The position numbers and the translations under genes were made by a program. Below, piece after piece: positions 3 through 36,417 of a stretch of DNA of 41,353 bases (within the stretch, counting starts at the first letter, position 1; every line of letters starts with the position of its first letter). The stretch lies in contig JADGBM010000015.1 in assembly GCA_015231515.1 (NCBI GenBank), positions 1-41,353 of the forward strand, read 5' to 3'. The DNA comes from Desulfobulbaceae bacterium. GTDB taxonomy: Bacteria > Desulfobacterota > Desulfobulbia > Desulfobulbales > VMSU01. The notes under the pieces were generated by a model that worked only from the letters and a program-made list of their open reading frames with translations, had not been told where the DNA came from and ran no database searches.

Positions 3-671
3 GGCTCTGTGCATAATGGGCCAGCCAGCCAGGTGGCGATCCAGCATAACTGCACCGGCGCCAATATTACTACGAGCGGTGCTGATTATTCATTTGAGCA
101 GGCATTAATGAGTGCGGAACTTCTAGCTGACAGTCGTGACGAATCGATCTTCGTAATTGGCGCCGATGAAGGGCACCCTCAGTTCTCTCATCTTTTCGAC
201 CAATCGATTAATGCGAATACACCTCTGGTTGATGGCGGCGCCGGTTTTTGCCTGACCAGAAACGCTAGCGGGAATGGCGTTACAATTTGCACCTCCTTTT
301 ATAAAAATTCAAAAAGTACTGCTGTCTTTGAAGCTCTGCTTGAAGCCCTTGGTGGCGCCAACCAGCTGGCAGCTGATTATGGAGTGCTGATGGTCGGTAT
401 ACCAGCGGCTTTCCGCAAAGAGGGTGATCGGCAGCTGGCCCAGTTCATGGAGCTTTCAGGATTTACAGGGCCGGTTATTGACTATAGGCAGCTAACCGGT
501 GAATTTGCTTCTGCGTCTGCCGTTGCGGCAGTTATGGCGTTGGAGTTTTTAGAAAAGGGGGCGCTGCCAAAAGAGCTTGCTGGCGGCAGCCAAAGGTCAT
601 TTGAACAAAAAGGGGTTCTCGTTTTAGGTTTTGGTCAATTTATCACCGCAATGGAGTTACATGCTCCATGA
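3..671 (+). CDS. Beta-ketoacyl synthase-like protein (N-terminal KS type), 5' end outside window
   Basis: Open reading frame that is already open at the left edge, so the start lies outside the window. The visible part is about 222 residues. It resembles the short KS N-terminal-like proteins (Ketoacyl-synt_2 type) found beside FabF homologues in aryl polyene and related lipid clusters: a QHNCTGANITTSG stretch followed by a helix and the IGADE segment that corresponds to the thiolase-fold strand after the active-site helix. I see no normal TACxxS nucleophile and none of the two KS histidine motifs, so it is probably a non-catalytic partner or chain-length-type subunit. Its stop overlaps the start of the next radical SAM gene by 4 bases (ATGA), indicating translational coupling. 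Family assignment is moderately sure; function is inferred. Confidence 0.6.
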   Translation, partial: GSVHNGPASQVAIQHNCTGANITTSGADYSFEQALMSAELLADSRDESIFVIGADEGHPQFSHLFDQSINANTPLVDGGAGFCLTRNASGNGVTICTSFYKNSKSTAVFEALLEALGGANQLAADYGVLMVGIPAAFRKEGDRQLAQFMELSGFTGPVIDYRQLTGEFASASAVAAVMALEFLEKGALPKELAGGSQRSFEQKGVLVLGFGQFITAMELHAP

Positions 672-2014
672 ATATTTTATTGATCTCACCGAATACACTT
701 ACGGTTCCCTATCCTGTTTACCCTATAGGCCTGGACTATGTGGCTGGCTCAGTATCTAAAGCCCACCAAGTGCGAATCGCTGATATGAATGTTGAAACCT
801 ACGAGTCGCTTGGCCGGATTCTTAAGGAATTTGCCCCTGACATTATTGGGGTTTCCTGCCGTAATATTGATAACACCGATGCCGGCGATTCACTGTTTTG
901 TGTTAACGAATATCGTGATGTTATTGCCTGGCTCAGGAGACATTCCAATGCTTGTATCGTCTGCGGCGGCAGCGGCTTCACAATTTTGCCGGAGTCGGTT
1001 TTCGATAAATTAGGGGCTGACTATGGCGTCATTGGCGAAGGAGAACGCTTTGGCCTGCTGGTTGAGGCCTTAAGTGAGGGTAGAAATGTAACTGAAATTC
1101 CAGGCATCATTTCGAAATTCTCTTCAAGTTCGACCCCTCAACCCTGGTCGGGCGTTTTGAACAGGGATTTCAGAACAGACTCTGCCCATAATCAGTTTTA
1201 CATGAAAAGAGGTGGGGTGTTTAACCTGCAGACCAAACGGGGCTGCACATTTAATTGCATCTACTGCCCCTATCCTCACATTGAGGGAAGACGGCATCGC
1301 TTGAGTGAGCCCGGCGCGGTCGCAGAAACGGCAATTTCTCTCCAGAAAGCCGGAGCTAAATACCTTTTTATTACCGATTCAGCCTTTAATTCAGATCTTG
1401 AGCACAGTCTCGCTGTGGCCAAAGCGTTTAAAAGCGCCGGACTATCAACTCCCTGGGGAGCGTTTTTTGCTCCTATCAAACACCCTGAAAACTATTTCAG
1501 GACAATGGCCGAGGCGGGCTTAACCCATGTAGAATTTGGCACTGAATCACTCTCTGATTTAATGCTGACTTCTTACCACAAACCTTTCCGGGCAAATGAT
1601 GTCTTTAAGGCCCATAATGAGGCTGTTGAGGCAGGCTTGCATGTTGCCCATTACTTTTTACTAGGTGGTCCGGGAGAATCTGCGGCTACGGTTAACGATT
1701 GCCTGGATAAAATAGAAGGGCTTAACAAAACAGTTTTATTTTTCTTTCTTGGTATCAGAATTTATCCCCACACTCAACTATACGATATTGCCTTGGCAGA
1801 AGGGAAAATCTCCAGCAGCATGGAGATGTTGGAGCCGGTTTTTTATGCACCAGATGCCATCAGTCTTGATGAAATTAATGAGCTTGTGCAACAAAGAGCA
1901 GGCCAGCGGATAAACTGGATATTTGGTTCCGGCGGCACTGAAAGCTCAGCCGTAGTTTCCAGAATGCATGAAAAAGGGTATGTTGGGCCCCTGTGGGAGT
2001 ACTTGGTACGATAA
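668..2014 (+). CDS. B12-binding-domain radical SAM protein, lipid-cluster type
   Basis: A 448-residue protein with an N-terminal Rossmann-like cobalamin-binding domain (about residues 1-140, starting MNILLISPN and containing VCGGSGFT and GVIGEGE), then a radical SAM barrel with the cluster motif RGCTFNCIYC (Cys193, Cys197, Cys200) and a GGPGES segment near residue 335. I see no DxHxxG cobalamin signature, as in many members of this class. Such enzymes methylate unreactive carbons or make C-C bonds. This architecture is the one described for B12/radical SAM proteins in lipid clusters including ladderane candidates; that link is from memory of the family, not a search. Its ATG overlaps the upstream KS-like stop. 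A gap of about 300 bases follows before the next gene. Substrate unknown. Confidence 0.85.
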   Translation: MNILLISPNTLTVPYPVYPIGLDYVAGSVSKAHQVRIADMNVETYESLGRILKEFAPDIIGVSCRNIDNTDAGDSLFCVNEYRDVIAWLRRHSNACIVCGGSGFTILPESVFDKLGADYGVIGEGERFGLLVEALSEGRNVTEIPGIISKFSSSSTPQPWSGVLNRDFRTDSAHNQFYMKRGGVFNLQTKRGCTFNCIYCPYPHIEGRRHRLSEPGAVAETAISLQKAGAKYLFITDSAFNSDLEHSLAVAKAFKSAGLSTPWGAFFAPIKHPENYFRTMAEAGLTHVEFGTESLSDLMLTSYHKPFRANDVFKAHNEAVEAGLHVAHYFLLGGPGESAATVNDCLDKIEGLNKTVLFFFLGIRIYPHTQLYDIALAEGKISSSMEMLEPVFYAPDAISLDEINELVQQRAGQRINWIFGSGGTESSAVVSRMHEKGYVGPLWEYLVR

Positions 2015-2321: not shown

Positions 2322-2672
2322 ATGTGGTATACGCTTGTTGAAGTTAAACAATCTGCTGAACTTGAAATATCGGCCAAAGTAAAAATCGAAGCTGATTCTC
2401 CGTGGTTTGCCGGGCATTTCCCAGAGGCGCCAATCTTGCCGGGGATAGCTCAGTTGGGAATGGTTTCTGATCTTATTTCCAAATTCAGCAAAAATGATTT
2501 ATATATACGAAGTTTGAGCAGGGTTAAGTTTAAAAAACTGTGCAAACCTGAAGATTTACTAAGTATTCATGCTCTTCCCGGGAAGGCTGCAAATAGTTAC
2601 TCTTTCCGCATAGAGGTCAGTGAAGAAGAAGTATGCTCCGGTGTACTAATGCTTGAAAATAAGGAGAAATAA
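2322..2672 (+). CDS. FabZ-like 3-hydroxyacyl-ACP dehydratase (single hotdog)
   Basis: A 116-residue single hotdog protein. The motif GHFPEAPILPG (His32 to Gly41) matches the FabZ/FabA active-site segment in which the His acts on the beta-hydroxyacyl-ACP. The protein is shorter than typical FabZ (about 140-150 residues), as is common for ApeP/ApeI-like dehydratases in polyene clusters. The catalytic acidic residue usually found on the central helix is not obvious: the helix reads QLGMVSDLI. It may therefore be an altered dehydratase or a hotdog partner. Start ATG at 2322 is chosen for the AGGAAGG ribosome binding site ten bases upstream. The ACP gene follows after 8 bases. Confidence 0.75.
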   Translation: MWYTLVEVKQSAELEISAKVKIEADSPWFAGHFPEAPILPGIAQLGMVSDLISKFSKNDLYIRSLSRVKFKKLCKPEDLLSIHALPGKAANSYSFRIEVSEEEVCSGVLMLENKEK

Positions 2673-2680: not shown

Positions 2681-2947
2681 ATGCAAAACGATATTAGCCA
2701 AACTACCATTCGTATTGCCCAGATACTTATCAATGAGTTAAAACTTGATGATGTCACCCCGGAGACCTTCGACCCTGATCTTGATTTGGTCGATGAAGTT
2801 GGGGTCGACAGCATGGATCTTGCCACAGTTGCCCTGGTACTTCGAGATGAGTACGGCATTAGAATTGATGAGGATGATTATCCAAAACTGACTACCGTGC
2901 GGATTATTGCCGAATACATTACCAACAAGTTACGCAGTGACGATTAA
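2681..2947 (+). CDS. Acyl carrier protein
   Basis: An 88-residue acidic ACP. The phosphopantetheine attachment site is GVDSMDL, with Ser44. Helix 1 spans about residues 8-22 and the typical C-terminal helix ends YITNKL. It lies between a dehydratase and two radical SAM proteins, and the next gene begins one base after its stop codon. This suggests that the substrates handled by the radical SAM enzymes may be ACP-bound acyl chains. It is one of three ACPs in the window, and the three sequences differ clearly, so each probably serves its own module. Confidence 0.92.
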   Translation: MQNDISQTTIRIAQILINELKLDDVTPETFDPDLDLVDEVGVDSMDLATVALVLRDEYGIRIDEDDYPKLTTVRIIAEYITNKLRSDD

Positions 2948-4015
2948 GTGAACTCCTCGGTTACAGGAAAAAAAGAGTATAAATTTTCCGAAATAATTGC
3001 TGATCCGGTCATCAAGGAAAGATTTGAAAAGGTGAGGAAGTATTTCTTCCTGCGCGAATCCACCTATGATATGACCCACCGCTGTAATGTTCGTTGTGAG
3101 GGGTGCTATTATTTTGCCGGAGAAAAGCAGTTTGCCGAAGAAAATCTGGATGAAAATAGTTGGCAGACTCTGCTGGAAGCAGAGAAAGAAAGAGGCATAA
3201 CCTTTGTGGTGCTTGCCGGTGCCGAGCCCTCGCTTGTCCCCCAGTTATGTGAAGTCTGTTATCGCACAATTCCATTAGGTGCTATTGCCACCAATGGTTT
3301 GATCCATATTCCTCTCCATATTGATTATAAAATCCATATCTCCGTTTGGGGTAATGACCAGACCAGCCTTGAAATCCGCAAAGCCAAAGATATGTTGGCC
3401 AGGCAGATCGTCAATTACCAAGATGATCCACGAGCAATATTTGTTTACACGTTTACCCCGGTTAATATTGATCAGGCCCGGGAGGTAACTGCTCTGCTGG
3501 CCCAAAACGGTCATAAAATTACCTTTAATATGTTTTCTGCTCCAGAGGGTTACCAAGGGCATCTTCGCCATGACCCAGACACTTTGGCCAGAACTCGCCA
3601 AACCATGACTGAGTTATTGCTACAGTATCCTGAAACGGTGGTATATTCCCATTACAATATAGTGGCCCATACTGACCCGAAAGGTCTGCATGCCCTTTAT
3701 TCGTGCTCTTATCCCCGCCGGAATCCTCTCTCTGATATCGGTCTTGGCCGCTCGTTCAGGCAATACAGGACAGATCTTCAATGGGACAGGGAGGCGGCCT
3801 GTTGTGTTCCCGATACGGATTGTGACGATTGTCGGCATTATGCAGCCGGTAGTGCCGTGGTAACCGCCAGGATGTATCGGCATGCCTCTGATCCTGAGAG
3901 TTTTAAGGCCTGGCTCGATTATGTCGACACCTATTTGGCCGTTTGGGTGAAGGATTACACAAAGGGCCAAAATCTTTGTGATAGGTTCATTGCCCCCCCT
4001 TCTGCTGAAGCTTAA
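2948..4015 (+). CDS. Radical SAM protein, first of a paralogous pair
   Basis: A 355-residue radical SAM protein. The 4Fe-4S motif is HRCNVRCEGC (Cys46, Cys50, Cys53), followed by the LAGAEPSL strand in place of the usual GGEP and an ATNGL segment near residue 118. The C-terminal third carries further cysteines (around residues 245-295, with a CC pair and a CxxC pair) that could bind an auxiliary cluster. It starts with GTG directly after the ACP stop. The next gene is a clear paralogue, sharing the same layout, the ISxWG segment and the tail cysteines. No known peptide-maturation or cofactor role fits the neighbours, so an acyl-chain substrate is inferred. Exact reaction unknown. Confidence 0.82.
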   Translation: MNSSVTGKKEYKFSEIIADPVIKERFEKVRKYFFLRESTYDMTHRCNVRCEGCYYFAGEKQFAEENLDENSWQTLLEAEKERGITFVVLAGAEPSLVPQLCEVCYRTIPLGAIATNGLIHIPLHIDYKIHISVWGNDQTSLEIRKAKDMLARQIVNYQDDPRAIFVYTFTPVNIDQAREVTALLAQNGHKITFNMFSAPEGYQGHLRHDPDTLARTRQTMTELLLQYPETVVYSHYNIVAHTDPKGLHALYSCSYPRRNPLSDIGLGRSFRQYRTDLQWDREAACCVPDTDCDDCRHYAAGSAVVTARMYRHASDPESFKAWLDYVDTYLAVWVKDYTKGQNLCDRFIAPPSAEA

Positions 4016-4057
4016 GAGTAATTAATCATAGATCTACAACCCAAAACAATACCTGAT

Positions 4058-5056
4058 ATGAAAACTGTAAGTTCTTTGTTGGATGAACATTGGTACGAAC
4101 GTTATAAGAAGATCTCGAAACTCAATATCCGCAGTTCGATATATGATGTAACGGATCGCTGTAATCTTCGCTGTAAAGGGTGTTTTTTCTTCTCTTCGGA
4201 TGAGCACAAAGCTGCCTCAGAAGAAAAAGATATCACAAAATGGGATGCTTTTGTTGAGAATGAGATGGCCAGAGGCGTCAACCTTGCCATCCTGATCGGA
4301 GGGGAGCCGACTCTGTGCCTGGACAGAATCGAGGCCTTTTACAAACGGCTGCCAACCTTTTGTGCCACCAACGGTTTGATTAAGGTCCCCAGGGAGCGAT
4401 TCCCTGACATGATGGTCGGGATCTCTTTATGGGGTGACGCAGAAGACGAAGTGTTTCTGAGAGGAAAAGATACCTTTACGATTTCCAGTGCCAATTATGC
4501 TGGAGATCCCTACACCTATTATCTCTATACCATCTCCCCCAAGCAGATTGGCAAGATTGAGCGAAATATCAAAAAAGTTGCCGATGTCGGTCTGAAAGTT
4601 CATATGCAGCTGTTGTCTAATGATGAGGGGTTTGACGGATTTTCCTGGCAACCGGAGCAGCTTGTCGCTATCCGGGCTGAAATGGATGATATGCTTGATA
4701 AATATCCCAAGACTGTCATCTCTTCAAAATACTATCACGAGATTATTACCACCGGCCAAATGCTGGGCCGCCCCTTTGGCTGGAATGAGTGCCCATCGGT
4801 GACCGATACTTTGGATAAGCGTGAGCCAAGACCAAAACGCTTAACTAATTTTATTCGTTGGGCCTCTGATCTTAAAACTATGCATCGCTGCTGCACCTCC
4901 GAGACCCGTGACTGTTCTACCTGTAAAGATGGCGCCGCCCATATGAGTTGGGTAATGGTCAATAAACGGGATCATATCCGCACCACCAAGGATCTGCAGA
5001 ACTGGATAGAGGTGTATGAAATGTTTGCAAAACTCTACCAATTTATCCCCTGGTAG
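4058..5056 (+). CDS. Radical SAM protein, second of a paralogous pair
   Basis: A 332-residue radical SAM protein with DRCNLRCKGC (Cys35, Cys39, Cys42), GGEPTL for SAM binding near residue 85, CATNGL, and a C-terminal cysteine group (HRCC, then CSTC about residues 290-305) that probably ligates a second iron-sulfur cluster. It is homologous to the preceding gene over its whole length (shared DVTDRCN/DMTHRCN start, ISLWG/ISVWG strand, tyrosine-rich middle). The pair may act as a heterodimer or carry out consecutive steps. It is separated from the upstream paralogue by about 40 bases and its stop lies 7 bases before the next ketosynthase. Substrate is inferred to be an acyl intermediate from the context only. 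Confidence 0.82.
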   Translation: MKTVSSLLDEHWYERYKKISKLNIRSSIYDVTDRCNLRCKGCFFFSSDEHKAASEEKDITKWDAFVENEMARGVNLAILIGGEPTLCLDRIEAFYKRLPTFCATNGLIKVPRERFPDMMVGISLWGDAEDEVFLRGKDTFTISSANYAGDPYTYYLYTISPKQIGKIERNIKKVADVGLKVHMQLLSNDEGFDGFSWQPEQLVAIRAEMDDMLDKYPKTVISSKYYHEIITTGQMLGRPFGWNECPSVTDTLDKREPRPKRLTNFIRWASDLKTMHRCCTSETRDCSTCKDGAAHMSWVMVNKRDHIRTTKDLQNWIEVYEMFAKLYQFIPW

Positions 5057-5063: not shown

Positions 5064-6311
5064 ATGGGCCTGAAAAAAGCTGTCATTCTCGGGTATGATG
5101 CGATCTCTCCTCTGGGCAGCGATCTCGAGAGCCAGTGGCAGAAGGCCCTTGACGGCGAGAGTGGCATTGGACCTTTGAGCCGCTTTGCGACGGGTGATGA
5201 TTTTCCCGTCCATATTGCCGGGCAGGTTCCGGATATCGACGATGAACCCTACCCTTTCCTCTCTGCAAGGCACCAGGCCTCCTGGAGCTCTCCTGTTTTT
5301 AAATATTCTATGCTGTCGGTGACCCGGGCTCTCTGCCGAAGTAAAATTGAGATAACGCCTGATCTTTCTCCCAGAGTTGCGGTTACCTATAGCTCTGCCA
5401 TTGGCGGGGTGGATGCGGTACTCAAGGCCGACCGGCGACTGATGGCAGAGAATAAACTGCCTCATCCGTACACGAATCCCAATGCCTGCATCAATATGGT
5501 TGGCGGCAAGATTGCCATTCAGACCAAGGCCCGAGGGCCGATAACTTCTACTATTACCGCTTGTGCCACGGGCCTGTCATCAATGGTTATCGGAGCCATG
5601 TTTTTAGCTCAGGGCAGAGCTGATGTGGCTATCTGCGGAGCGGTTGATTTTGCCCTGGTTGAACCGATTGTGGCCGGCTTTGCCACCATGAACGGCTGCT
5701 ATAATCCCCAAAAAGGTCAGGAGAATGAGGCCCCGGACAAGGCCAGTCGGCCATTTTCAAAAAACCGTCGTGGCTTTGTGCTCTCAGAAGGGGCTGGGGC
5801 GGTGATACTCGCCACTAAAGAGTTTGCCCAGGCCCATGGTCTAGAATATGCCATTGAACTTGCCGGTTGGGGCATGACTTCAGATGCCCATCATTTTGTT
5901 GCCCCATATTTTGAGACAGTAAGGCAATGTATGGCTGATGCGATACACGATGCCGGAATTACCAGGCAGGATATTGATGCGGTCAATGCCCATGCCGCCT
6001 CCACCAGAGTTGGCGACAAGGTCGAATATGACGCTCTGCTGGATCTTTTCGATGGTGCGCTGCCGCCGATCTCTGCCAATAAGTCATTGATTGGCCATGC
6101 CATGGGGGCCTCCAGTGTGATTGAGTCCATTTTTGCTATGCATGGTATGCAGCATGATTGGTTGCTGCCGACCATCAACTACACACCTGACCCTGAAATG
6201 GTCCTGGATTGCGTCTCAGAGGGCAAACGGCAGCTTACCCAGGAGTTTGTTCTCAAAAATGCCTTTGGCTTTGGCGGCTGTAACTGCTGCGCTGTTTTCC
6301 GTAGGGTTTAA
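5064..6311 (+). CDS. FabF-type beta-ketoacyl-ACP synthase (KS 1)
   Basis: A 415-residue ketosynthase of the FabF/KAS II fold. The nucleophile is in TACATG (Cys167) and the two histidines are in NAHAAST (His310) and SLIGHAMG (His345). The first His motif reads NAHAAST instead of the common NAHGTST, but the catalytic residue is kept. The C-terminal NAFGFGGCNCC segment is typical. I use ATG 5064 instead of an in-frame start at 5016, because 5016 would overlap the preceding gene and 5064 is preceded by AGGGG at 5055-5059. It should perform Claisen condensation on ACP-bound chains. It is followed 17 bases later by a second, clearly different KS. Confidence 0.9.
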   Translation: MGLKKAVILGYDAISPLGSDLESQWQKALDGESGIGPLSRFATGDDFPVHIAGQVPDIDDEPYPFLSARHQASWSSPVFKYSMLSVTRALCRSKIEITPDLSPRVAVTYSSAIGGVDAVLKADRRLMAENKLPHPYTNPNACINMVGGKIAIQTKARGPITSTITACATGLSSMVIGAMFLAQGRADVAICGAVDFALVEPIVAGFATMNGCYNPQKGQENEAPDKASRPFSKNRRGFVLSEGAGAVILATKEFAQAHGLEYAIELAGWGMTSDAHHFVAPYFETVRQCMADAIHDAGITRQDIDAVNAHAASTRVGDKVEYDALLDLFDGALPPISANKSLIGHAMGASSVIESIFAMHGMQHDWLLPTINYTPDPEMVLDCVSEGKRQLTQEFVLKNAFGFGGCNCCAVFRRV

Positions 6312-6328: not shown

Positions 6329-7594
6329 ATGAAAGCACCCAGAAATAGACGTGTATTTGTTATCGGTTACGGGGCCGCCACCCCCTTAGGGAACAGTTTT
6401 GCCAAAACATGGCAGGGGGCGGTCGAGGGGCGGGCCGGTTTCAAGAAAATAACAAAATGCGAAGTTACGACCAGAAGTAATATTGTCGGCCAAATTCCAG
6501 ACTGGAATCCTGCCGATCTTGACTTTGTCAACCGCAAAGAGGCGGCAGTCTGGGATGCTGATTATGTTTTTCTGACCATGCAGGTCTGCCGTGAGGCTCT
6601 GGTAAATGCCGGTTTGGAAATGAACGCCGAAACCGGACCCAGAACCGCATGCCTGATAGGTTCAGCCTTAAACGGCACGGATTCATATCGAATTGCTATG
6701 GATAACTATGTGAATCGAGGTCCCTTGAAGGTCAGCCCCTACCTCCTGCCGAATTTATGCGCCAATTTACCGGCTGGCAAGGCTGGGATGCTGCTGGGCT
6801 TTAGCGGCCCGATTTTTTCGCCCCAGGGAGCTTGTGCCTCTGCTAATCACGCAATCGGCATCGGGGCCAGGATGATCAGGGACGGGGATTGTGACTTTGT
6901 TCTTGCCGGTGGTGCTGAGACCTGTCTGGTGCCCGAGATTATTCAGGGTTTTGCCAACATGCAGGCAACTATTAAAGTAGGGCCCAAGGATCGGGCTTTT
7001 GGAGATCCGACTTTGGCATCACGGCCTTTCAGTATTGATCGGAAAGGATTTGTACTCTCGGAAGGTGCCGGTGTTGTCGTGCTGGCCGCAGAAGAGATGG
7101 TTCAATCATTAGGTCTTGAGGCAAAGGCTGAGGTCATGGGCATTGGCTGGACATCTGATGCCTTACATTTTACCAGACCTAATCCTCAAACTATTATCCG
7201 GGCGATATCTCAAGCAATCGACGATGCAGAGATTAGTCCGGCAGAGATTGGTTCCATCAATGCCCACGGCACCTCGACGCCAACAGGCGATAGTACCGAG
7301 ATTGAATGTTTGCGAACAATATTTGGTGCAAAGCTGTCTACGATTCCTGTTACCGCTAATAAATCCCAGATTGGTCATACCTTAGGCGCCTCCGCCGCCA
7401 TAGAAGCCGCGCTCAGTATCGAGGCAATGGGCAAGGGCTTGGTGCTGCCCACTGTAAACCATATAGCCGATCCTGCATTTGATGATGTTGATGTCGTTCC
7501 AAATATTGCCCGAAAACATACCTATGAATTTTTTCTTTCCAATGCCTTTGGTTTTGGTGGAACAAACTGCTGTGTTGTGTTTAAGGGTATTTGA
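6329..7594 (+). CDS. FabF-type beta-ketoacyl-ACP synthase (KS 2)
   Basis: A 421-residue FabF-like ketosynthase with the complete triad: Cys169 in GACASA, His312 in NAHGTSTPTGD and His350 in NKSQIGHTLGAS. It also has the FVLSEGAG and NAFGFGGTNCC segments. It is paralogous to KS 1, but the sequences are far enough apart to expect different chain specificity or heterodimer formation. In aryl polyene systems two KS-like proteins commonly act together, but here both keep all catalytic residues, unlike a KS/chain-length-factor pair. The start ATG lies just after the KS 1 stop. About 65 bases separate it from the thioesterase gene. Confidence 0.9.
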   Translation: MKAPRNRRVFVIGYGAATPLGNSFAKTWQGAVEGRAGFKKITKCEVTTRSNIVGQIPDWNPADLDFVNRKEAAVWDADYVFLTMQVCREALVNAGLEMNAETGPRTACLIGSALNGTDSYRIAMDNYVNRGPLKVSPYLLPNLCANLPAGKAGMLLGFSGPIFSPQGACASANHAIGIGARMIRDGDCDFVLAGGAETCLVPEIIQGFANMQATIKVGPKDRAFGDPTLASRPFSIDRKGFVLSEGAGVVVLAAEEMVQSLGLEAKAEVMGIGWTSDALHFTRPNPQTIIRAISQAIDDAEISPAEIGSINAHGTSTPTGDSTEIECLRTIFGAKLSTIPVTANKSQIGHTLGASAAIEAALSIEAMGKGLVLPTVNHIADPAFDDVDVVPNIARKHTYEFFLSNAFGFGGTNCCVVFKGI

Positions 7595-7660: not shown

Positions 7661-8140
7661 TTGAGACCAAAACCTTTTATTCCTGAATTTTTGGATCAAG
7701 ATAAACCTTTTGTCCGGGATAAAAATAGCGGCAGGGTCTGGCACCAATGTGAACTGCGTACCCTTTATGTGGATACTGATCGTTCCCAGGTTGTTTATCA
7801 TGCCAATTATCTCAGGTATTTTGAGTTTGGCAGGGCCTCTTTAATGCGCTATACGGCCTATCCGTATCGGGAAATTGAAGAGAGCGGTTATATCTATCCG
7901 ATCATAAAAATTGAGGTCAATTACTATACCCCGTTATTCTACGATGACCTGATGCTTATCCATACCAGTCCAGCCGCCCTGGAACTGGTCAAGTTGCAGT
8001 TTGACTACGTTATAACCAACCAGCAAACAGGTGAGATAATCTGTACCGGATTTACTAAACATTGCGCCGTAAACACTTCCGGGACTCCCGTTGAAATTGA
8101 TGACAAAACACGTGAGCTATGGCAGAGGTTTCCGAAATAA
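7661..8140 (+). CDS. YbgC/4HBT-family acyl thioesterase (hotdog)
   Basis: A 159-residue hotdog thioesterase. The segment YVDTDRSQVVYHANY (residues 36-50) matches the YbgC/4-hydroxybenzoyl-CoA thioesterase active-site strand and helix, with Asp40 in the catalytic position. An N-terminal extension of about 25 residues precedes the domain. It starts with TTG at 7661, supported by GGAG at 7650-7653. It may release or proofread acyl-ACP or acyl-CoA intermediates; thioesterases of this type are regular members of aryl polyene and flexirubin-type clusters. Its last 22 bases overlap the next gene, showing tight coupling with the dehydratase. Confidence 0.85.
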   Translation: MRPKPFIPEFLDQDKPFVRDKNSGRVWHQCELRTLYVDTDRSQVVYHANYLRYFEFGRASLMRYTAYPYREIEESGYIYPIIKIEVNYYTPLFYDDLMLIHTSPAALELVKLQFDYVITNQQTGEIICTGFTKHCAVNTSGTPVEIDDKTRELWQRFPK

Positions 8141-8994
8141 CTGTCCTTTCTCGGTTGCCGGTTACCATCGAGATTCAACCTTGGTTTCGGGATCATTGTT
8201 TTGCCGGCAAGATGATTCTGCCGGCGGTGGAGACTCTGGCCGTTCTAGCAAACGAAGTTACCAAGTTCAGGCCTGATATTGAGATCAGCAAAATGTATGA
8301 GGCACATTTTGCTAAATTTCTTGAAATTGGCCCGGCTGACCATGAGCTTGAGGTCATGGTCGAAATTGCTGAACATGACCTTGGTCAGATCACTGCAAAA
8401 TTACTAAGCAAATTCCATAAAAAGGCAATTTCCCGGATCGTTGAACATGGCCGAGTGACATTTTCCTCGCACAGAGCAGATCTGACTCCTCAAGCAGATC
8501 CAACTCGATTTACCCTTCCACAATCGGCCTTTAAACTGTCCTCCCAGCAGGTTTACCGGGAACTTGTTCCTTTTGGTAAGGCCTATCAAAATATTATCGG
8601 TGATATGTATCTCTTTGAACAGGGGGCCTGGGCCAGATTGATGGCACCTGCTTTGCCGTCAACTGCACTCGGTGGCGGTTTAGGTTCCCCCTTTCCTCTC
8701 GATGCTGCCTTTCATGCCGCCTGTGTCTGGGGCCAGCGTTACGCCGGATTTATCCCCTTTCCGGTAGGTTTTTCCAGCCGGACAATCAGCGAGTTTACCG
8801 AACCCGGGGCTACATATGAAACCAGAGTTATCCCGATTGAAGTTAAAGCGGATGAACTGATTTTTGACCTGTGGATTTATACTTCTCAAGGTGAGTTATT
8901 TGAGACCGTCTGTGGTATTAAGATGCGCGATGTCAGTGGAGGCCGCCTGAAACCGCCTACCTGGATTAAGTGTAGTCAAAATGCGATTCTGTAA
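8119..8994 (+). CDS. PKS-type double-hotdog dehydratase
   Basis: A 291-residue double hotdog protein resembling stand-alone polyketide synthase dehydratase domains (PS-DH). The first hotdog has RDHCFAGKMILPAVE (His26), matching the DH HxxxGxxxxP motif. The second has FPLDAAFHA with Asp195 and His199, matching the DxxxQ/H catalytic Asp motif. It would remove water from beta-hydroxyacyl-ACP and so create the double bonds of a polyene chain. It overlaps the thioesterase end by 22 bases. It is the last gene of the first block; a scar with decayed restriction-system pieces follows. The call is good; chain specificity is unknown. Confidence 0.75.
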   Translation: MAEVSEITVLSRLPVTIEIQPWFRDHCFAGKMILPAVETLAVLANEVTKFRPDIEISKMYEAHFAKFLEIGPADHELEVMVEIAEHDLGQITAKLLSKFHKKAISRIVEHGRVTFSSHRADLTPQADPTRFTLPQSAFKLSSQQVYRELVPFGKAYQNIIGDMYLFEQGAWARLMAPALPSTALGGGLGSPFPLDAAFHAACVWGQRYAGFIPFPVGFSSRTISEFTEPGATYETRVIPIEVKADELIFDLWIYTSQGELFETVCGIKMRDVSGGRLKPPTWIKCSQNAIL

Positions 8995-9126
8995 TTTGTA
9001 ACTCTATAGAAATTCTCATTTCGCAGGGTGCTAATAAATTGCACATCTCTTCAACTAATTGTAGAACCAATAAAATAAGCTAGGTGAATGCCTGTTCCAT
9101 AGCTGTTTTTAGGATTCGATTAACCA

Positions 9127-11565: not shown

Positions 11566-14500
11566 ATGATCAATTTTCGTCTCTTAATTAAAATTGTCGT
11601 ATTGTTTGGCGCCCTTGCCGCATTTGGTTTTATGCGGCTGGATGTCGAAACCGATGTGGTTCGCTCTCTGCCTACAAGTAACAAGGTAATTGCCGATGCC
11701 CTTGATATCTTCACCAATCACCCAATTCATGATCAGATAGCAGTTGATATCGGGCTTGATACGGATGATCCCGAAACCCTGCTGGCCTGTGCTGAGTTTG
11801 TCGAGAATAAATTTGTTGAAAGCGGCCTGTTTGCCCAAGTGGGCATGTCAGAAATGGGCAACCTGATCCCTGAGCTGGCATTGCAGGTGGTGAATAATCT
11901 GCCGTTTCTGTTTTCGGCAAGTGAGTTGCGCGACTCTGTTGCCCCGCGTTTAACTGCCCTTGAGATTAGCAGGAAGGTTACAGGTATATTCTCCGATCTG
12001 AGCAGCATGGACGGCATTGGACAAACTGAGTTTATTGCCGCCGATCCTCTCGGCCTGAAGGATCTGATACTGGCCAAAATGGCTATGCTTGCACCATCAG
12101 GCAACGCCCGTATGTCTAATGGCAAACTTTTTTCCGCCGATGGCCGCCATCTGCTGGTCACCGCCCGGCCCGTAATGACAGGTTCTAATACCGCGTCTGC
12201 CAGAAAAATTGAGCAGCTGATATCTGACCTTGCCGGCCAATTGACTGACAGGTTTGCAGGCAAGGGGTATACTGTTACACTGACCCCGGCAGGCTCATAT
12301 CGAGCCGCCCTGGACAATGAACGTATTATTAGAAGCGATGTAAATCGTGCCATTCTTCTTGCCACCATAGGAATTGCCCTGTTACTGCTGCTGGCCTTTC
12401 CCAGGCCGTTGATTGGCCTGTTAGCACTGGTTCCTGCTTTGGCTGGCACCGCCGCCGCCTTTTTTGTCTATTCTTTTTTTCACTCTTCTATATCAATAAT
12501 GGTTCTGGGGTTTGGCGGGGCCATTATTTCAATTACTGTCGACCATGGTATCGCCTATCTGCTCTTTTTAGATTGCCCCCATGAGACCAAAGGCAAAGAG
12601 GCGGCCAGGGAGGTGTGGGCGGTGGGGCTAATGGCCGTTCTGACAACCATCGGCGCCTTTACTGTTCTCTGTTTCAGCGGCTTTCCTGTTTTTGTCGAGC
12701 TTGGCCAGTTTACCGCCCTTGGTGTTTTGTTCTCTTTTTTGTTTGTGCACCTGGTCTTCCCCCAAATATTTCCCGCCCTGCCTCCTGGCAGCAGTCGGGC
12801 CTTGCCCTTACAAAAAGTTGTGGATAACTTTTTTAACTTTGGAAAAACAGGGGCGGTTGTCGCAGCGCTTTTTGCTGTTGTGATGGTCTTTTATGCAAAG
12901 CCTGAATTTAATACAGATTTACATACCATGAATACCGTGAGTCGGGATACTCTGGCTGCAGACCGCCAGTTTGCTAAGGTCTGGGGTGATATTGCCAGTA
13001 AAAGTTATCTGATGATTTCTGCGCCCTCCATTGACGAAATACGACAAATTGATGACGCGCTGCTTGCTACCATTGAAGGTGATATCCAAGCCGACTTGCT
13101 GGCCGGGGCCTTTGTGCCGGCCATGATATTTCCAGGGGAAAAGAGGCGTAAGGAAAATTTTGCGGCCTGGAGATCCTTTTGGACCGACAATACGATCAGC
13201 GCGGTGAAGCACTCCCTGACCGACTCATCCATGACCTTAGGGTTTGCGGTTAATGCCTTTTCGCCTTTTTTTGATTCTCTTGATACCACCAGCTATCAAC
13301 CTGAGAGTCCAATTCCGTCTCGTTTTTATAATCTTCTAGGGATCTCCGAGGTCAAGGATCAGACGACATTGGTCCAGTTTATAACGATTACCCCCGGCGA
13401 ACAGTATAAGGCGGATGCTTTTTTAGAAAAATACAGTCGTTACGGGAAAATATTTGAACCACAATATTTTTCTAAAAAGTTAGGGGATCTTCTTTTCTCA
13501 ACATTTACCAGGATGTTTTTGATACTGGCGGCAACTGTAACGGTTCTTCTGTTCTTGGTCTTTTTGAGCTGGCGGCTTACCTTAATTACTCTGGCGCCGG
13601 TTGCATTTGCCTACGTATCTACGTTGGGAACGTTAAAGATTTTAGGGCATCCCTTGGATATCCCCGGCCTCATGTTATCAATAATTATTTTAGGGATGGG
13701 AATTGATTATTCAATTTTTATTGTCAGGGCCCATCAGCGATATAGATCAACCGGGCATTCATCCTATAAGCTTGTGCGGATGGCCGTTTTCATGGCCTCT
13801 GCCTCAACGCTTCTTGGTTTTGGGGGGCTGGTTTCTGCTGAGCACTCTCTGTTGAACAGCGCCGGTCTGACCTCATTACTTGGTATCGGTTATTCGCTGA
13901 TCGGTGCTTTTGTGCTGCTGCCGCCTCTGCTCAAAGCGCAGTTCTCTAAGCACGAGTATCCTTTAGCCCTAGACTCCGCAGATCTGCCCCGTCGTGTTCG
14001 CAGAAGATATGCGCAGGTTGAAGCCTATCCGCGCCTGTTTGCGCGCTTTAAGTTGAGACTTGACCCGCTATTTGTTGATCTTACGGCCAAGCTTGCCGCA
14101 TGTCACGATGTCAGGACTATTGTCGATATTGGCTGTGGCTATGGAGTTCCGGCGGCATGGTGTCTCGAACAGTTTAAAAATGCCAGGGTTTTTGGCATTG
14201 AGCCTGATCCTGAAAGGGTGCGGATTGCCTCCTTAATAACCGGAGACAGAGGTGTTATCAAACAGGGATGGGCACCGGAAATGCCCGATCTCTCGGATCC
14301 AGCTGATATTGTTTTAATGCTTGATATGATGCACTATTTAGATGATAAAACCATCAGCGCAGTTTTCACTAACTGTTTTCACATCATCAGAGATGGTGGT
14401 GTGCTGGCGGCCAGATATGTAATTGTTCCTGAGGGGAAACCCTCCCTGGTCTGGCGTTTTGAAGAGTTGAAAATTAAATTGTCCGGCCTGACCGCTCATT

Positions 14501-14625
14501 ATCGACCTGCAAAAAAGATAAGCGCCTTGTTGATTGATGCCGGGTTTTCCGTTGAATCCAATAACATATCTGCAGTCAATGATGAATTGTATTGGTTTGT
14601 GGCCCGGGTTAACAAGAAATCATGA
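11566..14625 (+). CDS. MMPL/RND-family exporter fused to a SAM methyltransferase
   Basis: A 1019-residue protein. Residues 1 to about 800 are an MMPL-type RND exporter: an N-terminal helix, a large periplasmic loop, a first bundle of helices (about 260-410, with GFGGAIISITVDHG), a second loop, and a second bundle (about 640-795, with LGMGIDYSIF). Residues about 815-1019 form a class I methyltransferase with VDIGCGYG near residue 857 and LMLDMMHYL. Aryl polyene and flexirubin clusters encode MMPL exporters and methyltransferases as separate genes as a rule; the fusion suggests that methylation and export of the product are coupled. The next gene starts within its stop codon (ATGA). Confidence 0.88.
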   Translation: MINFRLLIKIVVLFGALAAFGFMRLDVETDVVRSLPTSNKVIADALDIFTNHPIHDQIAVDIGLDTDDPETLLACAEFVENKFVESGLFAQVGMSEMGNLIPELALQVVNNLPFLFSASELRDSVAPRLTALEISRKVTGIFSDLSSMDGIGQTEFIAADPLGLKDLILAKMAMLAPSGNARMSNGKLFSADGRHLLVTARPVMTGSNTASARKIEQLISDLAGQLTDRFAGKGYTVTLTPAGSYRAALDNERIIRSDVNRAILLATIGIALLLLLAFPRPLIGLLALVPALAGTAAAFFVYSFFHSSISIMVLGFGGAIISITVDHGIAYLLFLDCPHETKGKEAAREVWAVGLMAVLTTIGAFTVLCFSGFPVFVELGQFTALGVLFSFLFVHLVFPQIFPALPPGSSRALPLQKVVDNFFNFGKTGAVVAALFAVVMVFYAKPEFNTDLHTMNTVSRDTLAADRQFAKVWGDIASKSYLMISAPSIDEIRQIDDALLATIEGDIQADLLAGAFVPAMIFPGEKRRKENFAAWRSFWTDNTISAVKHSLTDSSMTLGFAVNAFSPFFDSLDTTSYQPESPIPSRFYNLLGISEVKDQTTLVQFITITPGEQYKADAFLEKYSRYGKIFEPQYFSKKLGDLLFSTFTRMFLILAATVTVLLFLVFLSWRLTLITLAPVAFAYVSTLGTLKILGHPLDIPGLMLSIIILGMGIDYSIFIVRAHQRYRSTGHSSYKLVRMAVFMASASTLLGFGGLVSAEHSLLNSAGLTSLLGIGYSLIGAFVLLPPLLKAQFSKHEYPLALDSADLPRRVRRRYAQVEAYPRLFARFKLRLDPLFVDLTAKLAACHDVRTIVDIGCGYGVPAAWCLEQFKNARVFGIEPDPERVRIASLITGDRGVIKQGWAPEMPDLSDPADIVLMLDMMHYLDDKTISAVFTNCFHIIRDGGVLAARYVIVPEGKPSLVWRFEELKIKLSGLTAHYRPAKKISALLIDAGFSVESNNISAVNDELYWFVARVNKKS

Positions 14626-16397: not shown

Positions 16398-17549
16398 TTG
16401 ACCTTATCACAGGTTTACATTACCAATATTACCGCATTCTTACCGAATGCACCTGTTTCGAATGAATCGATGGAACCGATTCTTGGACAGATCGGTAGAA
16501 GGGCATCACGCTGTCGTAAGTTGATTCTGCGGAGTAATCAGATACAATCGAGGCATTATGCGATTGACCCTGAAACCGGGAAGGCGACTCATAGTAATGC
16601 CCAACTGGCAGCCGAAGCAATCCGTAAATTCAGCAGCCAGGGCCGGGATATAAACACCATTGAGCTTCTGGCCTGCGGCACGACTCTTCCAGACCAGTTG
16701 CTGCCAAACCACGCCTTAATGGTCCACGGTGAACTTGGTGGACCACCTTGTGAGGCCATTGCCACTGCCGGGATCTGTCTCTCTGGGGTTATGGCACTAA
16801 AATACGGTTATATGGCAATTCGCGCCAGGCTGCATACCGATGCCGTTGCCACTGGTTCAGAAAATGCGTCTTCAATAATGCGGGGACACAATTTTACTGA
16901 GGAGGTCGAGTTGAACGCCGAACAGCTCAAGAAGCTGTCGGAGATATCCTTTGAGAAAGATTTTTTACGCTGGATGTTAAGTGATGGCGCCGGAGCAGTC
17001 TGGATGAGTGATACGGCCAATTCCCACGGCAACTCCCTGCGGATTGACTGGATCTATCAAAAATCATACGCCGCCGAACTTGATACCTGCATGTACGCCG
17101 GCGCCGAAAAACTTGCGGATGGTTCTCTGAAGGGTTGGCGCCAGTATTTACCCAATGAATGGCTGCAGCATTCCATCTTTTCAGTTAAGCAGGATGTTAA
17201 GCTGCTCAACGAAAAAATTATCGAATATACGGTAACCAAGCCCCTTGTAGAGCTTATTGCCCAGGACAAAATTGTGGCTGAGGAAGTAGACTGGTTTCTA
17301 CCGCATTACTCTTCGGGCTACTTTAAAGACAAAGTATATGCGGGTACGAAGTCTGCGGGCTGCGATATTCCTCAGGAGAAATGGTTCACTAATCTAACGA
17401 GTAAAGGAAACACTGGTTCAGCATCTATCTTCATCATCCTCGAAGAACTTTTCAACTCGAACCGCCTAAAAAAAGGCGAGACCTTGCTGCTCTACATTCC
17501 TGAAAGCGGGCGCTTTTCCACGGCCTTCATGCGCTTGACTGTGGTCTAG
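16398..17549 (+). CDS. darB: DarB-like ketosynthase (KAS III fold)
   Basis: A 383-residue KAS III-type ketosynthase. The triad is visible: Cys127 in AGICLSG, His303 in LPHYSS and Asn338 in KGNTGSAS. The length exceeds FabH (about 320), as in DarB, which condenses a beta-ketoacyl chain with an enoyl or other acyl thioester to give the cyclohexanedione precursor of dialkylresorcinols. Position right behind the DarA-like gene is the strongest support. The start is TTG 16398 with AGGG about 12 bases upstream. The following small gene begins 7 bases after the stop. Confidence 0.82.
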   Translation: MTLSQVYITNITAFLPNAPVSNESMEPILGQIGRRASRCRKLILRSNQIQSRHYAIDPETGKATHSNAQLAAEAIRKFSSQGRDINTIELLACGTTLPDQLLPNHALMVHGELGGPPCEAIATAGICLSGVMALKYGYMAIRARLHTDAVATGSENASSIMRGHNFTEEVELNAEQLKKLSEISFEKDFLRWMLSDGAGAVWMSDTANSHGNSLRIDWIYQKSYAAELDTCMYAGAEKLADGSLKGWRQYLPNEWLQHSIFSVKQDVKLLNEKIIEYTVTKPLVELIAQDKIVAEEVDWFLPHYSSGYFKDKVYAGTKSAGCDIPQEKWFTNLTSKGNTGSASIFIILEELFNSNRLKKGETLLLYIPESGRFSTAFMRLTVV

Positions 17550-17555: not shown

Positions 17556-17975
17556 ATGGAGCACGGCAAAGTCCCCCAGCATAATATCTCAACATACGCT
17601 AATAATAAAAAAGCGATGTATGCCACCGATGAAAGCGGCAAGTACTGCGTTGTCGCCTCGTCCGGCTGGGAAGTTGAAGAGGCGGTGACTAAACAGGCCT
17701 TAAGCGAACTGAAACGGCTGGCCTGTGATGCTCATCGCCAGGTCTGTTCCGGAGAAGTTTCACCGTTATATTTCCACATGTACGACCGCCGCATGGATAT
17801 ACAGGTTCTGTCCGAATCCACCGGAATTTACAAATGGCGCATTAAAAGACATTTTAAGCCGGCAGTGTTTACCCAGCTATCCGTGAAAATTCGTCGGCGA
17901 TACGCTGAGGCGCTGGGTCTATCTGTTGAGGAACTTGGCAGAGTGCCTGAAAGAGTGAATAGAAGTGAAGAGTAA
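17556..17975 (+). CDS. Small protein of unknown function between DarB-like and BtrH-like genes
   Basis: A 139-residue, probably cytoplasmic basic protein. The first third contains an ESGKYCVVASSGWEVEE segment; the last third (KWRIKRHFKPAVF... LGLSVEELGRVPE) is rich in arginine and ends in a short helix resembling a helix-turn-helix tail, though I would not call it a regulator. I do not recognise the family. Its tight placement in the dar-like run (7 bases after DarB, overlapping the BtrH-like gene by 11 bases) implies a function in the same pathway. Proteins of this size occupy the same slot in some flexirubin-type clusters as far as I recall; unverified. Confidence 0.75.
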   Translation: MEHGKVPQHNISTYANNKKAMYATDESGKYCVVASSGWEVEEAVTKQALSELKRLACDAHRQVCSGEVSPLYFHMYDRRMDIQVLSESTGIYKWRIKRHFKPAVFTQLSVKIRRRYAEALGLSVEELGRVPERVNRSEE

Positions 17976-18969
17976 AGCTTTCGAACATGCCCATTTTGCC
18001 CACTGTGAAAGTGGGGTTATGTCGCTGATGATGCGCCACTATGGGTTGCCGCTCTCTGAGGCGATGGTTTTTGGCCTGTCTGGGGCGCTGATGTTTGCTT
18101 ACCTGCCCTTTGTAAAACTTGGCGGCATGCCGCTCGTCGCTTATCGCAGTTTACCCAAATCGATTATCAAGGGATTGCAGAAAAATCTTGGTATCAGGAT
18201 GAAGATGCAGACCTTTTCTCAACCCCAAAAAGGCAGTGAGGCCTTAGATGAGCTCTTGGCCCACGGTGAGATTGTTGGCGCTCAGACTTCGGTCTTCTGG
18301 CTGCCGTACTTTCCGGAAGAGATGCGCTTTCACTTTAATGCCCATAACCTGATCATCTATGGCAAAGAGAATGGCGACTATTTAATCAGCGATCCGGTTT
18401 TTGAAGCGCCGGTGCGCTGCGAAGCAAGCGCCCTGCAAAAGGCGCGTTTTGTTAAAGGGGTGATGGCGCCTAAAGGATTGCTTTATTATCCGGAAAAAAT
18501 CCCCGCCACTGTTGATTATGCGACCATTATTCCAAAAGTTATCAGGAAGAGTGCCAAACGCATGCTCAAGACTCCGGTGCCCATTGCCGGGATCAGCGGC
18601 ATTCGAGCTTTGGCCAGAAAAATTGGCAAACTGGCCAAGGAAGACCGCCGTTATGCAAAACTCTTTTTAGGCCACATTGTTCGGATGCAGGAAGAGATCG
18701 GGACAGGGGGGGCCGGGTTTCGTTTTATCTATGCCTCCTTTTTACAGGAAGCGGGCAGTCTCCTTGACAGTAAAGTGCTTGATGAAGCCTCGGAAATGAT
18801 GACCAGTGCCGGGGATCAGTGGCGCGAATTCGCCCTAATGTCTGTTAAGGCGATCCGCAGCAAAAAAAGCCAGGAGATTGATTTTTTCTCTTTAAGAATG
18901 AAGCTCGAAAGTGTTGCCGATGCCGAAGCGGCTGTGTATCGAAAACTATTAGCAGACAAGCTGGTTTAA
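17965..18969 (+). CDS. BtrH N-terminal domain protein (probable acyltransferase)
   Basis: A 334-residue protein. The N-terminal half (residues 1 to about 170) matches the BtrH-type papain-like fold: FAHCESGVMS with Cys14 as likely nucleophile, and HNLIIYG near residue 128 supplying a histidine. The rest is helical and corresponds to the DUF4872-like tail. BtrH transfers an acyl group from an ACP to an amine in butirosin synthesis; in flexirubin-type clusters the same family occurs next to an ABC exporter. Here it may move the product or an acyl group off an ACP before export. The start is GTG 17965. The ABC ATPase follows after 3 bases. Confidence 0.78.
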   Translation: MKSKAFEHAHFAHCESGVMSLMMRHYGLPLSEAMVFGLSGALMFAYLPFVKLGGMPLVAYRSLPKSIIKGLQKNLGIRMKMQTFSQPQKGSEALDELLAHGEIVGAQTSVFWLPYFPEEMRFHFNAHNLIIYGKENGDYLISDPVFEAPVRCEASALQKARFVKGVMAPKGLLYYPEKIPATVDYATIIPKVIRKSAKRMLKTPVPIAGISGIRALARKIGKLAKEDRRYAKLFLGHIVRMQEEIGTGGAGFRFIYASFLQEAGSLLDSKVLDEASEMMTSAGDQWREFALMSVKAIRSKKSQEIDFFSLRMKLESVADAEAAVYRKLLADKLV

Positions 18970-33084: not shown

Positions 33085-34125
33085 CTAGCCTGGATTCTTA
33101 CAAGATGAATTTCGCCAACACGTTGGATCGGCGGCCAGATAATCACCGGTAAGCTGGTAGGCTGCGCCCCGGCAACCATAGCATTCGGCGGCTTTGTCAC
33201 AGGTGCGGCACTCGCCTTTAATCATCTCCCGAAAATTTTTCAGATTGTTCACAACCTCACTGTTTTTCAGTATAGCAGCCAACGGTTGCTGACGAATATT
33301 GCCAATAGCGATGGTGACACCGACACAGGGCATGACATTGCCGGTGGCGGTTACTACACAGGAGACTTGATGGCGCATGCATTTGTTGCCGGCCAGGGGC
33401 GGTTGTGGGTCCCAATCTCGACCATAGATATCACGGTCTATTTCGGCCAGCTTGGTAAATATTTTTTTAAGCTCGTTGGGGGAAACTTCGAGCCAGGTGT
33501 TCTGTTTGGCGTTGCCCTGTGGGGTAATTACCTCAAAATACGGCTCAATATTCTGGTCCCGCAGCCATTTCCACATTTGGGGTAATTCATCGATATTTTG
33601 CTGACAGATTATGGTGCTGATGGCCAAGAAGGCATCACTTGATGGGTAACCGGCCAGTTTCAAGTTGGCAAGGGCCTGCTGGATAATCTGAAAAGCCCCA
33701 TTTTTTCCGGCCAGGCGGTCTTGGAGGGCCTCATCCTGGGAGTTTTGCTTTAAAACGACCCTGACCTTGTTGGCGGCCAGGAAGTTGGCCAGCTCAGGGG
33801 TAATGCCACTGCCGTTGGTGAACATTTCAATGTCCAGCCCCTCTTTTTTGATGAAATTGATCATCTCTTGAAGATGGGGGTAGATACTTGGCTCACCGCC
33901 AAGGATGATAATTTTTCCAGCGCCCAGGCCTTTGGCCTGAAGTATAACATCCCTCAACTCTTCCCTGGAGAGTTCTTGTTCCAGCTCCTCTTTAGTTGGG
34001 ACATAACAGTACGAACAACGAAAATTACAGCGTCGGCTGAACTCAATCTCCATAGATAAAAGCCGGTTGGCGGCGACAGCCTTTTTGATCTCTTCTTCAG
34101 AAAACTCAAGATTATATGTTTGCAT
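33085..34125 (-). CDS. Radical SAM/SPASM domain protein
   Basis: A 346-residue radical SAM protein. The cluster motif is RRCNFRCSYC (Cys33, Cys37, Cys40), then ILGGEPSIYPH for SAM binding. The C-terminal 100 residues form a SPASM domain with cysteines in NKCMRHQVSC, MPCVG, GECRTC, ECYGCRG and TCWRNSSC, enough for two auxiliary iron-sulfur clusters. SPASM enzymes typically modify peptides, but some act on other substrates; no precursor peptide is visible nearby. It is the last gene of a minus-strand operon with an ACP, a ketosynthase and an acyltransferase, starting 5 bases after the preceding stop, so a lipid substrate is plausible. Confidence 0.85.
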   Translation of the reverse strand: MQTYNLEFSEEEIKKAVAANRLLSMEIEFSRRCNFRCSYCYVPTKEELEQELSREELRDVILQAKGLGAGKIIILGGEPSIYPHLQEMINFIKKEGLDIEMFTNGSGITPELANFLAANKVRVVLKQNSQDEALQDRLAGKNGAFQIIQQALANLKLAGYPSSDAFLAISTIICQQNIDELPQMWKWLRDQNIEPYFEVITPQGNAKQNTWLEVSPNELKKIFTKLAEIDRDIYGRDWDPQPPLAGNKCMRHQVSCVVTATGNVMPCVGVTIAIGNIRQQPLAAILKNSEVVNNLKNFREMIKGECRTCDKAAECYGCRGAAYQLTGDYLAADPTCWRNSSCKNPG

Positions 34126-35621: not shown

Positions 35622-35631
35622 AAGAGACTCA

Positions 35632-36417
35632 TTAATTTCCTGTGGCAAACGATTGCTGTACCAAGTTTTTCAACTCTGAAACCGAGGGCATGTTGTTCTG
35701 GTAATCCGGGTCGATGCTGTCAATAAATTCCACCATGATTTTATTTCTGATACCTGTGTTAAACAGGAATTTGCCTGGAGCAAAGAGTTTATTGCTGTTG
35801 TGAATACGCAGAACTTTGATTGGTGCCTGTCAGAGTCTGGCAATTTTAAGTGCCCCGTTGTTCAACGGGCCAATCTGTTCGGCGCTGTTTCTAGTCCCTT
35901 CAGGGAAAATAATAAGATTACCGCCTTGCCTCAAATACTCAGCCATCTGTTCAATCTGGTTGATCATCTGGTAGGAGAATTTTTCGTCGGTCGTTGAAGG
36001 CAAATAACCCGCCGTTTTCATAAGCCAGCTAAAGATCGGCACATGAAAGAACCTGGTTTTGACAATGGTTTTATGCCGCTCAAACAGGGAGATCATAATC
36101 AGAGGATCCAGATAGGAAACATGATTGCAGATAATAACCGAGGATCTGATCTTTAGGATATCCGTGTCGATATGCCATGAATGTCTTGGAATAATGGCCT
36201 TTGCCAGCTTAAAAAAAACTCTGTAATAAATATGGTGCAAACGCTGAAAAGCGAGTTCTCGATTTTTGGAAAACAGATAGGCAATCAAGTACAACAGAAC
36301 GAAAAAGAAGAGAAAGCCAAAAATAAAATAGGCCCAGAGAATCAGGGTTACAACAAGATCAACCAATTGCGTGCCAAATCTGGGCAAAGGAACATTAGTT
36401 GGTTTCGGGACTGCCAT
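35632..36417 (-). pseudogene. Lysophospholipid acyltransferase-like protein interrupted by in-frame TGA
   Basis: The first 195 codons encode an LPLAT (PlsC-like) protein: membrane segment at about 21-50, NHVSYLD (His99, Asp104, the HX4D motif), FPEGTR at 171-176 and NNGALKIARL. A TGA then stands at 35832-35830, but the same frame stays open for 65 more codons (QAPIKVLRIHNSNKLF and onward) to TAA 35634-35632, 10 bases before the next gene. The downstream part continues the LPLAT fold as expected, so this is a nonsense change in an otherwise preserved gene, or much less likely a recoded codon. The intact enzyme would acylate a glycerolipid or the cluster product. It overlaps the KS end by 23 bases. 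Confidence 0.75.

Follow-up and report, generated by a model that had tools for sequence, protein, structure and literature searches.

Two adjacent radical SAM genes of a Desulfobulbaceae bacterium, here called A and B, may encode two functionally distinct proteins that work as an obligate pair in anaerobic lipid synthesis of the type II fatty acid/polyketide kind, oxidising a chain bound to an acyl carrier protein (ACP)—a tentative reading drawn by analogy, to which a probability of roughly 0.45 is attached. The pair constitutes an uncharacterised subfamily within a kind of cluster that had been noted before in sulfate reducers, and such Desulfobacterota clusters have been reported as expressed in anoxic water (PMC9902471). 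The ACP-A-B arrangement is a compact marker of the sulfate-reducer clusters, and A, B and their carrier protein become named candidates for anaerobic fatty-chain modification. The window referred to below is the whole 41,353-nucleotide stretch of DNA that was analysed.

The gene pair and its conserved block

The pair, its immediate neighbours and the other members of the cluster named in the text are as follows.

668..2014, + strand: B12-binding radical SAM gene (TIGR04072 rSAM_ladder_B12, 384 bits against a cut-off of 360), homolog of the B12 gene of the anammox ladderane locus
2322..2672, + strand: ApeI/FabZ-type dehydratase, usually upstream of the ACP
2681..2947, + strand: dedicated acyl carrier protein (PP-binding, PF00550), conserved directly upstream of A
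2948..4015, + strand: radical SAM protein A (GTG start, 355 aa; CNVRCEGC, LAGAEP, ISVWG, tail C253...CCVPDTDCDDC)
4058..5056, + strand: radical SAM protein B (ATG start, 332 aa; CNLRCKGC, LIGGEP, ISLWG, tail C245...CCTSETRDCSTC)
5076..6311, + strand: FabF-type ketosynthase 1, member of the conserved block
6329..7594, + strand: FabF-type ketosynthase 2, member of the conserved block
7661..8140, + strand: YbgC/FadM-type thioesterase, member of the conserved block
8119..8994, + strand: PS-DH (polyketide-type dehydratase) protein, member of the conserved block
11566..14625, + strand: MMPL exporter and methyltransferase domain in one fused open reading frame
16398..17549, + strand: DarB-like dialkylresorcinol ketosynthase, within the same cluster
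17556..18969, + strand: DarG-family protein and DarH (BtrH-related acyltransferase), dialkylresorcinol/flexirubin type
33085..34125, - strand: rSAM3, a SPASM-type radical SAM gene, homolog of the other radical SAM gene of the anammox ladderane locus (47-50% identity)
34131..35648, - strand: BchE-like B12 radical SAM gene, adjoining rSAM3

A first-pass annotation had placed the two open reading frames of the pair at exactly these coordinates and described a layout shared from end to end, which is borne out by BLASTP (30% identity over 322 aa, E 4e-43); the CxxxCxxC motif (residues 46-53 of A and 35-42 of B), the ISVWG/ISLWG strand and the tail cysteines are all present as it quoted them. The latter are C253, C285, C286, C292 and C295 in A and C245, C278, C279, C286 and C289 in B, each tail carrying a CC-x5/6-C-x2-C motif with one cysteine upstream of it. 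The ACP stop codon TAA occupies positions 2945-2947 and the GTG of A follows at the very next base, leaving spacers of 0 bp between ACP and A and 42 bp between A and B. This direct junction, also pointed out earlier, is common, recurring in 31 of 79 loci among the best 80 of at least 466, start positions being assigned from homology to the window. The AGAEP of A, set against the GGEP of B, is present but is no single-copy oddity, being a fixed A-type feature (73 of 75 A proteins among the best 80 of at least 466 loci). A and B are the only close family members in the window's genome, the radical SAM gene at 33085-34125 giving a third, weak match (30% over 66 aa).

The core order in 19 relatives is FabZ-ACP-A-B-FabF-FabF-YbgC thioesterase-PS-DH dehydratase with small exceptions, the run from FabF1 and FabF2 through thioesterase to dehydratase lying downstream of the pair in all 19 examined. 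The exceptions are G077, where FabF1 stands between A and B and FabZ was not detected; G085, with neither FabZ nor ACP detected; G047, with FabZ on the opposite strand; and G039, with extra genes ahead of the dehydratase. Frequent neighbours include TIGR04072 B12 radical SAM proteins, MMPL exporters, polysaccharide deacetylases, acyltransferases, ketoreductases (KR), AMP-ligases and LolA-like proteins; where neighbouring families bear no label, we take their names to be those suggested by reading their sequences. Aryl polyene component types (ApeI, ACP, KS, KR, TE and AMP-ligase) are found across the loci, and the cluster as a whole resembles, judging from its genes, an aryl-polyene-plus-resorcinol or ladderane-like lipid cluster. 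The DarB, DarG and DarH genes (16398-18969) are also found in one relative, G301, and are unexpected for this group, since the window's genome appears from its closest named relatives to be that of an anaerobic sulfate reducer. A short open reading frame at 9084-9623, amid the lipid genes, has a partial RhuM-family match and looks like a remnant insertion.

Family, conservation and origin of the pair

The radical SAM superfamily membership of A and B follows from the invariant CxxxCxxC motif and from Foldseek matches to radical SAM structures, PF04055 matching A at 22.1 and B at 24.2 bits, both below its gathering score of 29.5. The SPASM motif follows the formula CX9-15GX4C-gap-CX2CX5CX3C-gap-C. 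Neither protein has this SPASM/Twitch pattern, their tail being CC-x5/6-C-x2-C, and neither gives a Pfam match to PF13186 (SPASM), which the rSAM3 homolog in the presumed anammox locus L200 does. Among curated NCBIfam radical SAM equivalogs the best matches of A and B reach 28-30 bits against cut-offs of 180-650; no match to LipS or LipA models was found for either, and the LipS1 and LipS2 models (NF053742/NF053743) are not among the matches of A, B or a B-like protein. The tetraether synthase (Tes) model gives weak matches to both, far below its cut-off and confined to the common core. Placement in a known peptide or nucleotide subgroup, which the annotation had raised as an argument against its reading, was thus not found, no curated family claiming A or B. 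AlphaFold models have a mean pLDDT of 87 for A and 83 for B, with a confident core and a low-confidence tail in which cluster geometry is not visible. Among solved structures Foldseek places radical SAM enzymes nearest, a good many of them bearing auxiliary clusters, the best matches including SkfB, SuiB and ChlB, and GDGT-MAS occurring among those of B; these matches are generic, with TM up to about 0.57 and at most 20% identity, many being to peptide or nucleotide enzymes.

A scan of the named genomes' contigs gave at least 466 encoding loci, of which the best 80 were kept, and the alignment sets from the named genomes comprise 75 A proteins and 77 rows extracted as B. Among these best 80 of at least 466 loci, C253, C285, C286, C292 and C295 of A are kept in 75/75 proteins, C278, C279, C286 and C289 of B in 77/77 rows, and C245 of B in 73. 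Four of the 77 rows bear the A-type signature LAGAEP; being A matches from loci without a recovered B, they would account for the four rows lacking C245. CxxxCxxC is invariant across all aligned members, and CC-x5/6-C-x2-C is invariant also in A-like and B-like single-copy relatives, save for B-like plasmid singles in which the spacing is shortened to x4 (CCTSGHCNDC type); two A-like singles, L031 and L033, lack C253. The poor conservation of tail cysteines that the annotation had named as a point against its reading was not observed, these cysteines being invariant across the family.

Among 395 genomes from the phylum to which the window belongs, full-length A occurs in 28, B is present in 28/28 of these, and the two are adjacent in all except G077 with its interposed FabF1. 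Among the judgeable loci of the best 80 of at least 466, an ACP gene stands ahead of A in 74 of 74 and B comes next after A in 71 of 74. The hosts of these best 80 loci are mostly Desulfobulbales and Desulfobacterales, and the same block is found in Thiorhodococcus mannitoliphagus, a purple sulfur bacterium, in one Planctomycetota MAG and in two Spirochaetes MAGs. Exactly two copies per genome are present in four named genomes, including Desulfofustis glycolicus, Thiorhodococcus, Planctomycetota and Spirochaetes. An IQ-TREE phylogeny places A in one clade (100/99) and B in another (100/100), which rules out a recent tandem duplication; the earlier term 'tandem paralogous' therefore holds in that the genes are related and adjacent, but not in the sense of such a duplication. 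A groups with the A-like singles from Methylomagnum and G018 (100/99), so the divergence of A and B came before the tandem block arose. In both the A and B subtrees Thiorhodococcus clusters with a Desulfobulbus MAG, as would be expected had the two genes been transferred together. Some branches of this tree are flagged as long, and the placement of the B-like singles is less certain. On the sequence evidence, A and B are ancient members of a single, uncharacterised subfamily of radical SAM proteins and move between phyla together.

Single-copy relatives are found in several other settings. An A-like single lies in an ACP-TauD-radical SAM-NRPS arrangement on a Methylomagnum plasmid, and in four planctomycete genomes a B-like single comes immediately after LipS1 and LipS2, lipoate ligase and GcvH-like genes being present in those loci that were examined. 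Examples of the latter are L202 5081-6196, L203 7581-8738 and L204 7569-8663 (- strand), where Hdr-like genes are also nearby. Replacement of LipS1 by the B-like protein is ruled out, LipS1 being present in 4/4, one gene further on; as LipS1 and LipS2 are both there, the B-like protein comes in addition to them and, to judge by gene order, is possibly a third radical SAM protein involved in assembling lipoate. Such a third protein goes unmentioned in the available part of PMC10332631. B-like singles also stand beside a PaaA-type protein in Burkholderia (followed by a thioesterase) and Alteromonas (followed by MaoC), and within about 1 kb of a PaaA-type gene in Tistrella; these homologs of PaaA-type acyl-CoA oxygenase close to a B-like gene are seen on Burkholderia, Alteromonas and Tistrella plasmids (L034 11267-13664, L035 11129-13484, L036 8025-10682). 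Matches to the B-like gene came from 11 Alteromonas plasmid records, and a gene of the Alteromonas type with the same score occurs in a record labelled Enterobacter hormaechei (NZ_OR497351.1, 177513-178469), possibly a mislabelled or unusual plasmid. For the B-like singles of the order Chromatiales, an alpha/beta hydrolase is the sole neighbour shown.

Proposed chemistry and its alternatives

The conserved link with a dedicated ACP and a pair of ketosynthases supports, together with the context of distant relatives, acyl-ACP chemistry, and the recurrence of these relatives beside carrier-bound acyl chemistry (ACP/NRPS; LipS1-LipS2-lipoate) lends support by association to acyl-carrier substrates. 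What their settings share is acyl chains borne by carriers or by CoA. Taken with the conserved neighbourhood, A and B probably modify a carried fatty chain without oxygen, and on balance the substrate is likely to be ACP-bound. Gene linkage by itself fits an enzyme of the ACP-bound chain, a maker of starter units or a late tailoring step equally. The annotation had called paired radical SAM enzymes acting on ACP-bound chains unusual chemistry; the conserved ACP/ketosynthase linkage supports the substrate, and 'unusual' is fair for a linked pair, but precedents exist. Jaw5-type cyclopropanases act on carrier-bound chains. Such HemN-like cyclopropanases, Jaw5 among them, belong to iterative polyketide synthases (PMC13389473), and lipoyl synthases are radical SAM enzymes acting on carrier-bound acyl chains (PMC9585515), so the chemistry of A and B would be unusual, not unheard of.

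In the proposed mechanism, A and B would each generate a 5'-deoxyadenosyl radical and take hydrogen from the chain on the adjacent ACP, with a putative second Fe-S cluster on CC-x5/6-C-x2-C serving as electron acceptor. Together they would carry out an oxygen-independent oxidation of the growing chain, most likely a desaturation involving one or two steps or positions, ahead of the action of thioesterase and exporter. Dehydrogenation as the net reaction, suggested by the cysteine pattern and by analogy, is a rather doubtful assignment. Greater reserve still applies to the proposal that A and B are a two-protein, oxygen-independent acyl-ACP desaturase or cyclase not common to anammox ladderane synthesis; if true, such an enzyme would be an anaerobic counterpart of the oxygen-dependent acyl desaturases and could account for polyunsaturated lipids of sulfate reducers.

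The tail cysteines bear on what else the pair might do. Insertion of sulfur into the ACP-bound chain, with the auxiliary cluster as sulfur source as in lipoyl synthases, is suggested by the B-like singles after LipS1-LipS2, with their lipoate ligase and GcvH-like genes, and by acyl chains being carrier-held in both systems. It is nonetheless distinctly unlikely: the planctomycete loci keep LipS1 and LipS2 with the B-like protein as an extra, A and B match no LipS or LipA model, and the four invariant tail cysteines could fill all iron sites of a cluster, as opposed to the clusters of LipA, LipS1 and LipS2, which are bound by three cysteines and another ligand (PMC9585515). Since four cysteines could fully ligate a [4Fe-4S] cluster, an electron-transfer role is favoured over that of a sacrificial sulfur donor, which places dehydrogenation ahead of sulfur insertion; the next rival is C-C bond formation. 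The formation of C-C bonds within or between lipid chains (cyclisation, cross-linking), as by tetraether synthases or hypothetical ladderane cyclases, draws on TIGR04072 and the other ladderane-type genes of the cluster, on the Tes model matches and on GDGT-MAS among the Foldseek matches of B, yet those Tes matches fall far short and touch the common core alone, and the anammox ladderane loci are without A and B; it is accordingly judged unlikely.

The kinship of the cluster with aryl polyene and dialkylresorcinol clusters raises the question of whether the pair makes or modifies an ACP-borne starter unit, aromatic or short acyl, instead of the growing chain. The window genome and 8 of 11 relatives (9 of 12 genomes) lack an aromatic ammonia-lyase, so that an aryl starter via ammonia-lyase is not supported, and this absence would leave a starter-making role for A and B; an AMP-ligase in 7 of 21 neighbourhoods, however, offers an alternative starter route, and the chance that the pair serves the starter is slim. 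That A and B are peptide-modifying (RiPP) maturases lying in a lipid cluster by chance is highly improbable: SkfB, SuiB and ChlB are among the best Foldseek matches, but the spacers on either side of A leave a precursor gene no room, no maturase model comes near its cut-off and the lipid neighbours are constant, and with neither precursor gene nor SPASM motif this candidate was rejected.

Relation to ladderane, SPASM, lipoyl and aryl polyene systems

Radical SAM genes common to anammox bacteria and Desulfotalea were described by Rattray 2009 and its reviewers as Kuste3343/DP1855 and Kuste3342/DP1853, ladderanes not being found in D. psychrophila (PMC2649909). Polyunsaturated hydrocarbons are known from D. 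psychrophila and would be a candidate product if its genome carried A and B. The shared TIGR04072 suggested that A and B might be the anammox pair Kuste3342/3343. In genome G486, presumed anammox from full-length hydrazine-synthase-like open reading frames and ladderane gene order (the marker being full-length frames of about 800-830 aa, PF18582 alone not being clean), locus L200 has the order methyltransferase-FabF-small gene-AMP-ligase-radical SAM/SPASM-B12 radical SAM-FabG-FabA-like, with which the Kuenenia gene list in Table 2 of PMC4790861 agrees. The radical SAM pair of L200, identified as Kuste3342/3343 by gene order and not by sequence, matches the window genes at 33085-34125 (47%) and 668-2014 (32%), neither of which is A or B; the identity of A and B with Kuste3342/3343 is ruled out, the slot being filled by homologs of other window genes. 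The A/B pair was not found in the presumed anammox genomes, where an A1 profile gives distant core matches only. As the anammox slot holds those other homologs, A and B set the sulfate-reducer clusters, to which annotation tools give the label 'ladderane', apart from genuine anammox ladderane loci. Away from its ladderane locus, a presumed anammox genome carries a tandem pair of BchE-like B12 radical SAM genes (L199 6309-9281, - strand), homologs of the window gene at 34131-35648.

A literature search on radical SAM enzymes in aryl polyene clusters gave survey and mining papers only, going by titles and abstracts. Compared with the ladderane loci (Kuste3335-3352) and the syntenic Desulfotalea psychrophila clusters, the window has in common FASII genes, divergent FabFs, a phytoene-desaturase-like gene, and the SPASM and B12 radical SAM genes. 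SPASM/Twitch enzymes of the SkfB, SuiB, BlsE and BtrN type share with A and B the radical SAM core and a cysteine-rich C-terminal tail, whereas A and B have neither the SPASM cysteine pattern nor the Pfam SPASM domain, and fold similarity outside the core is low. LipS1/LipS2 are likewise two radical SAM proteins, whose genes adjoin those of the B-like relatives in planctomycetes, and have auxiliary [4Fe-4S] clusters and a carrier-bound acyl substrate, the counterparts of which are putative in A and B; the latter differ in sequence family, LipS being BioB-like, and in cysteine layout (PMC9585515, PMC10332631). With aryl polyene and dialkylresorcinol/flexirubin clusters the window shares the ApeI-type dehydratase, ACP, ketosynthases, YbgC thioesterase, MMPL exporter, acyltransferases and DarB/DarG/DarH, but here the ammonia-lyase is usually absent, the hosts are mostly anaerobic, and A and B together with further B12 radical SAM genes have been added.
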